Positions 15,269 to 27,357 of a stretch of 34,871 nucleotides of DNA are shown piece by piece. The notes under the pieces were generated by a model. That model saw nothing but the letters and a program-made list of their open reading frames with translations. It had not been told where the DNA came from and ran no database searches. Made by a program: the position numbers and the translations under genes. Each line of letters starts with the position of its first letter. Position 1 is the first letter of the stretch. This stretch comes from Spirochaetia bacterium (GTDB lineage: Bacteria > Spirochaetota > Spirochaetia > Treponematales > Treponemataceae), in contig JALEPQ010000117.1 in assembly GCA_022768685.1 (NCBI GenBank), positions 1-34,871 of the forward strand, written 5' to 3'.

Positions 15269-15296
15269 TAAAGATTTTCTAAACTCCCTCCGAAAA
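15269..15296 (+). promoter_or_regulatory. Candidate FliA (sigma-28) promoter of first flaB
   Basis: TAAA (15269-15272), 16-base spacer, TCCGAAAA (15289-15296), compared with TAAA-N15-GCCGATAA. Six of eight -10 bases match. It would give a leader of about 150 bases before the ATG at 15453. Confidence 0.45.
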
Positions 15297-15313
15297 TTTA
15301 TAAGAGGTGTTAT

Positions 15314-15449
15314 GACTGTACATACTTCGTTGAAGGAAAACAGTCAGGCAACTTAGCAAAAATGTGTAGATGTAGCCTTGTAATAACATTTACGCATTTT
15401 TGCGTTATTAGAAGAAAGGATTCTTCTATTTATAATTCCAAGGAGGAAT
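15314..15449 (+). promoter_or_regulatory. Structured flaB leader with two CsrA-type hairpins
   Basis: Hairpins in order: GACTGT (15314-15319) with ACAGTC (15340-15345) and an inner CTTC/GAAG; TAATAA (15381-15386) with TTATTA (15405-15410) and an inner CGCA/TGCG; AGAAGAA (15410-15416), loop AGGA, TTCTTCT (15421-15427), a perfect 7-bp stem; ATTCC (15435-15439), loop AAGGA, GGAAT (15445-15449). The last encloses the Shine-Dalgarno sequence AAGGAGG. GGA exposed in a hairpin loop is the CsrA recognition feature, and a pair of such sites with one at the ribosome binding site is the arrangement on Bacillus hag mRNA. Confidence 0.7.
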
Positions 15450-15452
15450 ACT

Positions 15453-16313
15453 ATGGTTATCAACCACAACATGTCGGCAATGTTTGCCAATCGTAATCTC
15501 GGAGTAACTGGAACTAGTATCACAAAAGATATGGAAAAGTTATCTTCAGGAGAAAGAATCAACCGTGCAGGTGATGATGCTTCAGGACTTGCTGTATCTG
15601 AAAAGATGCGCAGCCAGATCAGAGGTTTGAATCAGGCTTCTACAAACGCTTCAAACGGCATTAGCTTTATTCAGACAACTGAAGGATATCTTCAGGAAAC
15701 AACAGATATTATGCAGAGAATTCGTGAACTTGCAGTTCAGTCTTCAAACGGTATCTACTCTGACGAAGATCGTATGCAGATTCAGGTAGAAGTTTCTGCT
15801 CTTGTATCAGAAGTTGATCGAATTGCAAGCACAGCCCAGTTCAATGGCATGAACATGCTTACTGGACGTTTCGCTCAGGCTACAGGAGAAAATTCTGTTA
15901 CTGCTTCTATGTGGTTCCACATTGGTGCTAACATGGATCAGAGAGTTCAGGTATTTATCGGAACTATGACAGCTGAAGCTCTTGGTGTTCGCGAAATTGG
16001 TACAGAAGAAAAGCTTTCTCTTGCCACACCGGAAGATGCCAACCGTGCAATCGGAACTATCGACGAAGCTATGAAAAAGATCAACAAACAGCGTGCTGAT
16101 CTTGGTGCTTATCAGAACCGTCTTGAAATGACAGTTAAAGGATTGGATATTGGAGCTGAAAACTTACAGGCTTCAGAATCTCGCATCCGTGATACAGACA
16201 TGGCTAACCAGATGGTTGAATTCACTAAAAACTCAGTATTACAGCAGGCTGGAACAGCAATGTTGGCTCAGGCTAACTCTCAGTCTCAGAATGTACTTAG
16301 TTTATTGAGATAA
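15453..16313 (+). CDS. flaB: Flagellar filament core protein FlaB (copy 1)
   Basis: 286 residues. The N-terminal [20 protein letters not shown] with [20 protein letters not shown] (D0/D1 helices), and the C-terminal [20 protein letters not shown] ending in NVLSLLR, are the conserved flagellin ends. The variable centre is very short, as in spirochaetal periplasmic core flagellins. There is no signal peptide, as expected for export by the flagellar type III system. It has its own long leader with predicted CsrA sites over the ribosome binding site, and is followed by a very stable hairpin (16409-16449), so it is probably a separate transcript from flaB copy 2. Confidence 0.96.
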
Positions 16314-16686: not shown

Positions 16687-16740
16687 CAGGACTCAAAGCA
16701 CGAAGCTTTGTAGTATTAGTAAACATGGAGGGCATTAATT

Positions 16741-17589
16741 ATGATTATTAATCACAACATGAGTTCACTTTATGCTGATCGTGTATTGAACATTTCAAAT
16801 GAGTCAATCATGAACAACATGGAAAAACTCTCTTCTGGAGAACGCATCAATCGTGCCGGAGATGATGCTTCTGGATTAGCTGTATCTGAAAAGATGCGCA
16901 GCCAGATCCGCGGACTTAATCAGGCAAGCAAGAACATTGAAAATGGTGTTTCTTTCATTCAGACAACTGAAGGTTATTTGACTGAAACAACAGACATTTT
17001 ACAGCGTGTTCGTGAACTTGCAGTTCAGTCAGCTAACGGTATCTACAGCGATGAAGATCGTATGCAGATTCAAGTAGAAGTATCACAGTTGGTAGCTGAA
17101 GTTGACCGCATTGCCAGTCAGGCTCAGTTCAACGGTATGAATATGTTAACTGGAAGATTTGCTTCTGAATCAGACAGCATTATGCAGTTCCAGATTGGAG
17201 CTAATGTTGACCAGAATGCACGTGTATTCATCGGTACAATGACAGCTCAGGCTCTTGGTCTTAAAGGAGCTCAGGGTGGCGATGAACAGATTTCTATTGC
17301 AAGTCCTGAAGAAGCAAACATGACACTTGCTGCTGTTGATGCTGCATTAACAAGTGTAACAAAACAGAGAGCAGATCTTGGTGCTTATCAGAACCGCTTT
17401 GAATTAGCTGCAAAAGGTGTAAATATTGCTGCAGAAAACACTCAGGCATCAGAAAGCCGTATTCGCGATACAGACATGGCTTCAGAAATGGTTGAGTTTA
17501 CAAAGAACCAGATTCTCACACAAGCTGGTACAGCAATGCTTTCACAGGCTAACTCACAGTCACAGACAGTTCTTTCTTTATTGAAATAA
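16741..17589 (+). CDS. flaB: Flagellar filament core protein FlaB (copy 2)
   Basis: 282 residues, a paralogue of the preceding flaB with nearly identical N-terminal ([20 protein letters not shown]) and C-terminal ([27 protein letters not shown]) helices; the differences are concentrated in the middle. Treponemes build the filament core from several FlaB isoforms. A GGAGGG ribosome binding site precedes the start, without the strong CsrA-type hairpin seen at copy 1, so the two isoforms may be controlled differently. A clear intrinsic terminator follows (17641-17676). Confidence 0.96.
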
Positions 17590-17640: not shown

Positions 17641-17676
17641 AAAAGAAGGGGTGCGCCCCCCTTCTTTTCTTTTTTT
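17641..17676 (+). terminator. Intrinsic terminator after flaB copy 2
   Basis: AAAAGAAGGGG (17641-17651) pairs exactly with CCCCTTCTTTT (17658-17668) around a six-base loop, followed by a T-rich tract to 17676. Confidence 0.9.
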
Positions 17677-17730
17677 GTGGGAGACAAACACATTTAGTTT
17701 TAGTGTGTTTTATATACAAGGAGGGTACCA

Positions 17731-23353: not shown

Positions 23354-23599
23354 TTATCTTTTTAATAAATCTGAAAGGGCACTGACTGCATCAATTCCAG
23401 ATATATTATTAGTATCATTATCTGCAGCAGCTTTATTTTCTGACTGAATTGCATCAAAAACTTCCTGACGAAAAACTTTTACATCACGAGGAGCTTCAAC
23501 ACCAATTTTTACCTGATCACCTTTAACATCAATCAGAGTAATTGTAATATCATTTCCAATTTTGATTTTTTCATCAATTTTTCTCGAAAGAATAAGCAT
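23354..23599 (-). CDS. csrA: Translational regulator CsrA
   Basis: 81 residues. [20 protein letters not shown] and [18 protein letters not shown] are the canonical CsrA core with the RNA-contacting Leu4/Arg6 and the distal VxRxE-like edge. The tail after residue 55 is longer than in E. coli, as is usual when FliW is present. CsrA dimers bind GGA hairpins in mRNA leaders; the first flaB leader in this window has two candidates. The start overlaps the fliW stop by one base, with GGAGGG inside fliW. It is the last gene of the flgN operon. Confidence 0.96.
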
Positions 23600-24042
23600 T
23601 ATTGCCCTCCTTTCTTTTTAAGCATATCCAGAATATCAACCTTAGTTGACCATCTGTTATCGCCAGAAATTGCCTGAATGCATTTTTTATTATTTTTATT
23701 AATAACTATTGGACCTGCAAAGTTGGCTGTAATGGGAGAACCATCACTTGGAACAGTGACAATTGTCATAATTATAATATCTTCAGGTTTTTTAATATCA
23801 ATTTTTGCAAGAGTTAAATCATCAATATCAGTTTCATATTCATTGCAAATTAAAAACGGATCAACAATTAAAAAGGCAAGATTTTTATCTTCAATGGACT
23901 GCAACCAGATAAATGGTTCATATTCACAATCAACTAAAGCAAATTTTGTGTAGTTTTCAAAACCAAACAGACCTTCTGGAATAGTAAGAAGTTTATCATC
24001 CGTGATTTCAACTTTATGCATATCTTTTGTTGTAATTTCCAT
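23599..24042 (-). CDS. fliW: Flagellar assembly factor FliW (CsrA antagonist)
   Basis: 147 residues. [20 protein letters not shown] and [20 protein letters not shown] are the family blocks; [20 protein letters not shown] is the conserved C-terminal part. In Bacillus FliW binds both CsrA and flagellin: when flagellin is exported, FliW is freed to sequester CsrA and relieve repression of flagellin translation. It lies 28 bases after flgL, with GGGGA before the start, and is coupled to csrA. Confidence 0.95.
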
Positions 24043-27232: not shown

Positions 27233-27357
27233 CTCCTATTAAAACTCCGCGTTAGCGGCGAGCCAGGATGGCGAGTATCCAAGTTTATGAAGTGCAGAGC
27301 ACGAAATAAACTTGGTGATAAAAATTACACGGACGTAATTTTTATCACACCTCCTAT
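27233..27357 (-). repeat. Hairpin array between flgN and flgK, flanked by 7-base direct repeats
   Basis: Three adjacent hairpins: CCGC (27247-27250) with GCGG (27255-27258); CCAAGTTTAT (27279-27288) with ATAAACTTGG (27306-27315), nested around GTGC/GCAC; and GTGATAAAAATTAC (27315-27328) with its exact complement (27335-27348). CTCCTAT occurs on both sides (27233-27239 and 27351-27357). On the minus strand it reads ATAGGAG, and the inner copy is the flgK ribosome binding site. The array has the look of a small inserted repeat with target duplication. Confidence 0.65.

Follow-up and report, generated by a model that had tools for sequence, protein, structure and literature searches.

The locus described here raises the question of whether the leader of a Treponema flagellin gene could serve as an operator at which CsrA would repress translation and from which FliW would release it. 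The window, i.e. the whole stretch of 34,871 nucleotides that was analysed, corresponds to a single contig (G000:C104) from a draft genome of Treponema. It carries two flagellin genes, whose names were assigned from their position and their similarity to T. denticola usage, together with the genes coding for CsrA and FliW.

The flagellin locus and its regulators

15453 to 16313, + strand: flaB1, flagellin core protein of 286 amino acids, ATG at 15453 (NCBIfam flagellin models)
16741 to 17589, + strand: flaB3, the other flagellin of the cluster, with 282 amino acids (NCBIfam flagellin models)
23354 to 23599, − strand: csrA, 81 amino acids (Pfam PF02599, 3.5e-24)
23599 to 24042, − strand: fliW, 147 amino acids (Pfam PF02623, 5.8e-38; PDB 2aj7, 5dmb and 9p4g)

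The flaG and fliD genes are located downstream of the flaB cluster and a third flagellin gene, flaB2, is found on a separate contig. Relatives of flaB1 were detected in all 118 genomes of the genus that were searched. The fliW and csrA genes belong to a flgN-flgK-flgL-fliW-csrA cluster on the opposite strand from flaB1, in which the flgN match is below the Pfam cut-off and the csrA start codon overlaps the end of fliW. The initial annotation had placed fliW and csrA 8 kb from the flaB1 leader, and the measured distance is 7.9 kb, on the other strand. A perfect 14-bp hairpin is also present between flgN and flgK (27315-27348); its loop reads ACGGAC on the + strand only, opposite to flgN and flgK.

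Two GGA hairpins in the flaB1 leader

Upstream of the flaB1 start codon, two stem-loops are predicted as CsrA sites:

15410 to 15427, + strand: SL1, loop AGGA (hexaloop AAGGAT), the more upstream of the two predicted CsrA sites
15435 to 15449, + strand: SL2, loop AAGGA, the predicted CsrA site that overlaps the ribosome binding site

SL1 is formed by AGAAGAA-AGGA-TTCTTCT, with an eighth U-A pair at 15409/15428, and SL2 by ATTCC-AAGGA-GGAAT, the Shine-Dalgarno sequence AAGGAGG (15440-15446) being contained inside the latter. The hairpins are separated by 7 nt and the two GGA motifs by 24 nt. The positions, the loops, the inclusion of the Shine-Dalgarno sequence in SL2 and the 7-nt gap are exactly those described in the initial annotation. 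Both hairpins are present in the minimum free energy and centroid folds and still form when folding is extended to the full predicted leader; compared with dinucleotide shuffles, the z scores were -3.1 for a 101-nt fold and -5.2 for the 172-nt leader. At Rfam gathering scores the window matched tRNAs only, the flaB1 leader being far below them, and relaxed thresholds did not assign the leader to a family either.

The two strands of the window contain 34 GGA hairpins of at least 5 bp, which could favour the idea that the pair seen in this one AT-rich leader arose by chance or from base composition. When the 149-nt leader was shuffled 20,000 times with its dinucleotides preserved, any GGA hairpin of at least 7 bp was obtained 53 times and a GGA hairpin of at least 5 bp near the start codon 106 times, but the two together were never obtained (0/20,000). 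Among the 33 gene starts of the window, that of flaB1 is the only one with two GGA hairpins within the 100 nt that precede it. A chance origin is refuted by the comparative data, i.e. by conservation with covariation across the genus, the family and the phylum as described below, and its probability is negligible.

Conservation and covariation in the genus

Orthologues of flaB1, nearly all from the same genus, were collected by a whole-genome search and from GTDB contigs; the named relatives in these sets include T. bryantii, T. ruminis, T. parvum, T. socranskii and T. saccharophilum. Redundant leaders were dropped and 111 distinct ones were left. The motif TC[CA]ANGGAGGAA, present at SL2 in 111/111 distinct leaders, doubled as the pattern by which flaB1 leaders were recognised, and excluded 6 of 117 candidates that were at the flaB3 position or had flaB3-type leaders. 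The SL2 site reads CCA[ACT]GGAGGAA in 110 of the 111 leaders and CAATGGAGGAA in the remaining one. At SL1, the hexaloop ANGGAN was found in every leader (A at the first position in 111, GGA in 111), on a stem that has been rewritten to the point that 36 different 5' stem hexamers occur, and this invariant loop lies outside the ribosome site. Loss of the loop GGA or of the stems among close relatives had been named in the initial annotation as the observation that would speak against its reading, and all the leaders keep the GGA. The GGA-to-GGA spacing is 22-27 nt in 103/111 leaders; spacings of 53-55 nt in two leaders of the genus count against a two-site operator.

In an alignment of 68 distinct leaders, seven of the eight SL1 pairs change on both sides, standard pairs fill 92.6% of the pair cells against 76.2% after shuffling, and the covariation score of the whole structure is 0.484 against 0.177 for shuffled alignments, none of the 500 shuffles reaching it; sliding the partners gave no more than 0.119. 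RNAalifold recovers the same helices. The covariation that the initial annotation had suggested looking for in related treponeme leaders is strongly positive for SL1. For SL2 that check could not be informative: its four inner pairs hardly vary, so that covariation says little about this stem. The support for SL2 comes instead from the retained TTCC arm, which is dispensable for the ribosome.

Stable hairpins in leaders frequently protect mRNAs. SL1 could thus be an mRNA-stabilising hairpin and SL2 a mere ribosome-site hairpin or thermometer, CsrA being uninvolved, and the 5-bp stem of SL2 does by itself enclose the Shine-Dalgarno sequence. A stabilising hairpin, however, needs no invariant ANGGAN (111/111) on top of a freely changing stem, and a second GGA hairpin at a near-fixed distance of 22-27 nt is left unexplained. 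These observations make leader hairpins working independently of CsrA very improbable.

Other elements of the flaB1 leader

Three further elements are predicted upstream of SL1:

15269 to 15293, + strand: predicted sigma28-like promoter, TAAAG (15269-15273)-N16-CCGA (15290-15293)
15313 to 15346, + strand: SL-A, RNA fold TGACTGT...ACAGTCA with the inner hairpin CTTC-GTT-GAAG
15356 to 15403, + strand: SL-B, 18-bp hairpin with the apical loop AGCCTTGTAATA (15374-15385)

The TAAAG-N16-CCGA pattern was found in 97 of the 111 flaB1 leaders, with the same spacing in 95 of them and a spacing of 17 in 2; transcription of flaB1 would accordingly begin near 15300-15305. In SL-A, ACTTCGTNGAAG recurs in relatives. 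For SL-B, a set of 31 sequences shows two-sided changes at 10 of the 18 pairs. GCCTTG occurs in 107/111 flaB1 leaders, and 86 of the 107 folds place it entirely unpaired within the apical loop. SL-B gave no Rfam match, and no pairing partner was found for its loop GCCUUG. As CCUUG is complementary to CAAGG, the loops of SL1 and SL2 were examined as candidate partners. This pairing was rejected for want of covariation: GCCTTG is kept in leaders with ACGGA or ATGGA as the SL2 loop, and AAGGA is kept in some leaders devoid of GCCTTG.

CsrA and FliW

A single csrA was detected in the genome, as the only match found. The best PDB match of its product is 5dmb_D, the CsrA chain in the structure of the FliW-CsrA complex. 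By comparison with two reference sequences, which agree with the PDB alignments over the stretch covered by the latter, CsrA retains L4, R6, R44, I51, N55 and a C-terminal extension. In C. jejuni CsrA, N55 and V51 (V or I elsewhere) are required for FliW binding (PMC7829508). The genome therefore possesses both FliW and a CsrA of the FliW-binding type (N55, V/I51, R44, C-terminal extension). FliW was found in 54/54 high-quality genomes of the genus that were searched. Across the phylum, 144 of the 149 genomes sampled have a CsrA match, and none of the other five is a finished assembly.

The best explanation of these sequence data is that the flaB1 leader is, with high probability, a two-site CsrA operator at which repression of FlaB1 would be relieved by FliW. 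The CsrA-FliW-flagellin switch proposed in the initial annotation is supported by the comparative test and by the presence of CsrA and FliW with the needed residues. By analogy with established CsrA-FliW-flagellin systems, from which CsrA binding, repression, FliW relief and the bridging of both sites by a single dimer are inferred, a CsrA dimer would dock on the GGA of SL1 and that of SL2, 24 nt apart, and, once docked, would cover the Shine-Dalgarno sequence and block FlaB1 translation. During flagellin export, free FliW would bind CsrA beside its RNA pockets, CsrA would leave the leader and FlaB1 would be made; flagellin backing up in the cytoplasm would hold FliW and repression would return.

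Leaders of the other flagellar genes

The flaB3 leader presents a different arrangement:

16694 to 16710, + strand: hairpin CAAAGC-ACGAA-GCTTTG at the place of SL1, loop devoid of GGA
16723 to 16731, + strand: ACATGGAGG, the one GGA site, located at the Shine-Dalgarno sequence of flaB3

A C-A-H-G-A-N-G hairpin was found at the place of SL1 in 95 of 109 flaB3 leaders, and CATGGAGG in most of them. The stem of this hairpin covaries, and the H position of its loop is T in 46, A in 29, C in 20 and never G in these 95 leaders; the absence of G is suggestive and does not amount to a test, because the leaders share ancestry and the search pattern allowed any letter there. In other genera of the family, most flaB3 leaders have a GGA in the hairpin loop. 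In C. jejuni, when mutation M2 turned the SL1 GGA into UGA, CsrA bound less strongly and the FlaA level rose (PMC4894983); a lower sensitivity of flaB3 to CsrA is predicted on this ground. It is possible, though rather doubtful, that the leaders confer different CsrA sensitivities to flaB1 (two GGA hairpins) and flaB3 (one CsrA site), or that a different protein reads the flaB3 loop. If so, the leader difference would set the FlaB1:FlaB3 ratio in the mixed filament.

In the flaB2 leaders of the genus (L101, L178, L185 and L088), both GGA hairpins are absent and no Rfam match was obtained, so that not all the flagellins would be controlled in this way. Three of these leaders (L178, L185 and L088) share a AACGGGTGGTG stretch. 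The flaG leader contains a TTTGT-GGGAG-ACAAA hairpin (17674-17688), and stronger GGA hairpins are present in the relatives L161, L148 and L124. As a simple scan detected a GGA hairpin of at least 5 bp in only 15 of 39 flaG leaders, several of them chance-like, flaG is not claimed as a CsrA target.

Distribution in the family and the phylum

A covariance model, R1, was built from the flaB1 leaders. In its own genome, R1 gave one strong match of 71 bits, the flaB1 leader, the next match scoring 20 bits; the weak matches in this genome (E of 0.7 and worse) were taken as noise. Of the 145 family genomes, 140 gave an R1 match. In the set of 149 genomes spread over the phylum, 106 had a match at E of at most 1, most of these matches being weak. 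The stronger matches outside the family for which flagellin coordinates were listed are all located at a flagellin start. Twenty other stronger out-of-family matches were fetched: 16 open a flagellin gene according to tblastn, two more proved to be flagellins on inspection (one of them cut by a contig end), and the remaining two open a FlgN-like gene, identified by reading the sequence. In the latter leaders (L257 and L258, on contigs G277:C11 and G328:C60 of distant spirochetes), a two-hairpin GGA leader with a nearby CGCCGATA precedes the FlgN-like gene, which suggests that CsrA may control other flagellar operons.

In a 1.1-Mb genome of the family devoid of R1 match, a GGA hairpin and a ATTCCACGGAGGAAT site were recognised by eye (L220). 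In the distant relatives L211 and L216, the hairpin has no clear GGA loop, though their genomes have CsrA. Four small genomes of the same class, taken for Borrelia, have flaB leaders with a GGA hairpin and a GGAGG site; they differ from the present case by a single FlaB-type gene each, a larger spacing and little or no R1 match.

Comparison with known systems

The initial annotation had likened the leader to that of B. subtilis hag. That likeness stands, but the closest published arrangement among those compared is that of C. jejuni flaA, where two ANGGA stem-loops are proven CsrA sites repressing flaA (Dugar et al. 2016, PMC4894983), as established by gel shift, footprint and mutation, with compensatory changes among species (PMC4894983). 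Both leaders belong to flagellin genes and have in common two ANGGA stem-loops, the second one on the ribosome site, and compensatory stem changes; FliW is the CsrA antagonist in C. jejuni. The C. jejuni leader is 45 nt long and serves an external flagellum, whereas here a leader of about 150 nt is predicted, with two further hairpins, and several flagellins are present. In B. subtilis, a Gram-positive bacterium with external flagella, a CsrA dimer occludes the Shine-Dalgarno sequence of hag and FliW is the antagonist, as is predicted here; the fliW and csrA genes are adjacent in both organisms and are translationally coupled in B. subtilis (PMC6529632). The comparison with the hag leader is at the level of these described features.

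These systems also bear on the idea that CsrA binds the flaB1 leader mainly as a stability factor, or is titrated by it, rather than acting mainly as a FliW-relieved repressor of FlaB1. The flaA mRNA of C. jejuni is repressed by CsrA and also titrates it (PMC4894983), B. subtilis CsrA lowers the hag transcript levels as well (PMC6529632), and overexpression of CsrA in L. interrogans raised flaB mRNAs (PMC8668096), so that the sign of the control can differ between spirochetes. The location of SL2 on the ribosome site in all the leaders, however, fits direct repression, and the csrA/fliW overlap and the FliW-binding residues have been kept. A main role in stability or titration is consequently judged unlikely, and direct repression relieved by FliW is preferred.

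Among spirochetes, Borrelia burgdorferi CsrA is reported to repress translation of the periplasmic flagellin gene flaB (Sze et al. 2011, as cited in PMC3757020 and PMC9481697), and CsrA-FliW-flagellin control of a periplasmic flagellum was proposed in 2013 for Borrelia hermsii (PMC3757020). In Leptospira, gel shift revealed CsrA binding to a GGA hexaloop hairpin of L. biflexa flaB3 and L. interrogans flaB4; this hairpin is just upstream of the start codon and is the only site described, and the CsrA effect on flaB differs between the two species (PMC8668096). For T. denticola, which likewise has a flgN-flgK-flgL-fliW-csrA cluster, CsrA sites near the Shine-Dalgarno sequences of flaB1 and flaB2 were stated in 2022, in the discussion only (PMC9481697). 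In that species the flaB1 promoter is described as sigma70-like and that of flaB2 as sigma28 (PMC9481697), whereas the flaB1 leaders studied here have a sigma28-like promoter; flaB2 is credited with a CsrA site there (PMC9481697), whereas the flaB2 leaders here are devoid of the hairpins. Because of the C. jejuni, Borrelia, Leptospira and T. denticola cases and of the 2013 FliW model, flagellin control of this kind is already known from other bacteria, and the flaB1 leader provides a well-supported example of it in a spirochete. No description of a phylum-wide two-hairpin leader was found in the literature searched, most subscription journals being outside its scope.

Significance

The comparative evidence is strong that two-hairpin CsrA control of flagellin translation is widespread, and probably old, in Spirochaetota. 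The statement made in the literature for T. denticola becomes a set of defined and testable sites. The periplasmic filaments of this phylum combine several flagellins, and the difference between the flaB1, flaB2 and flaB3 leaders could help to set the flagellin mix.
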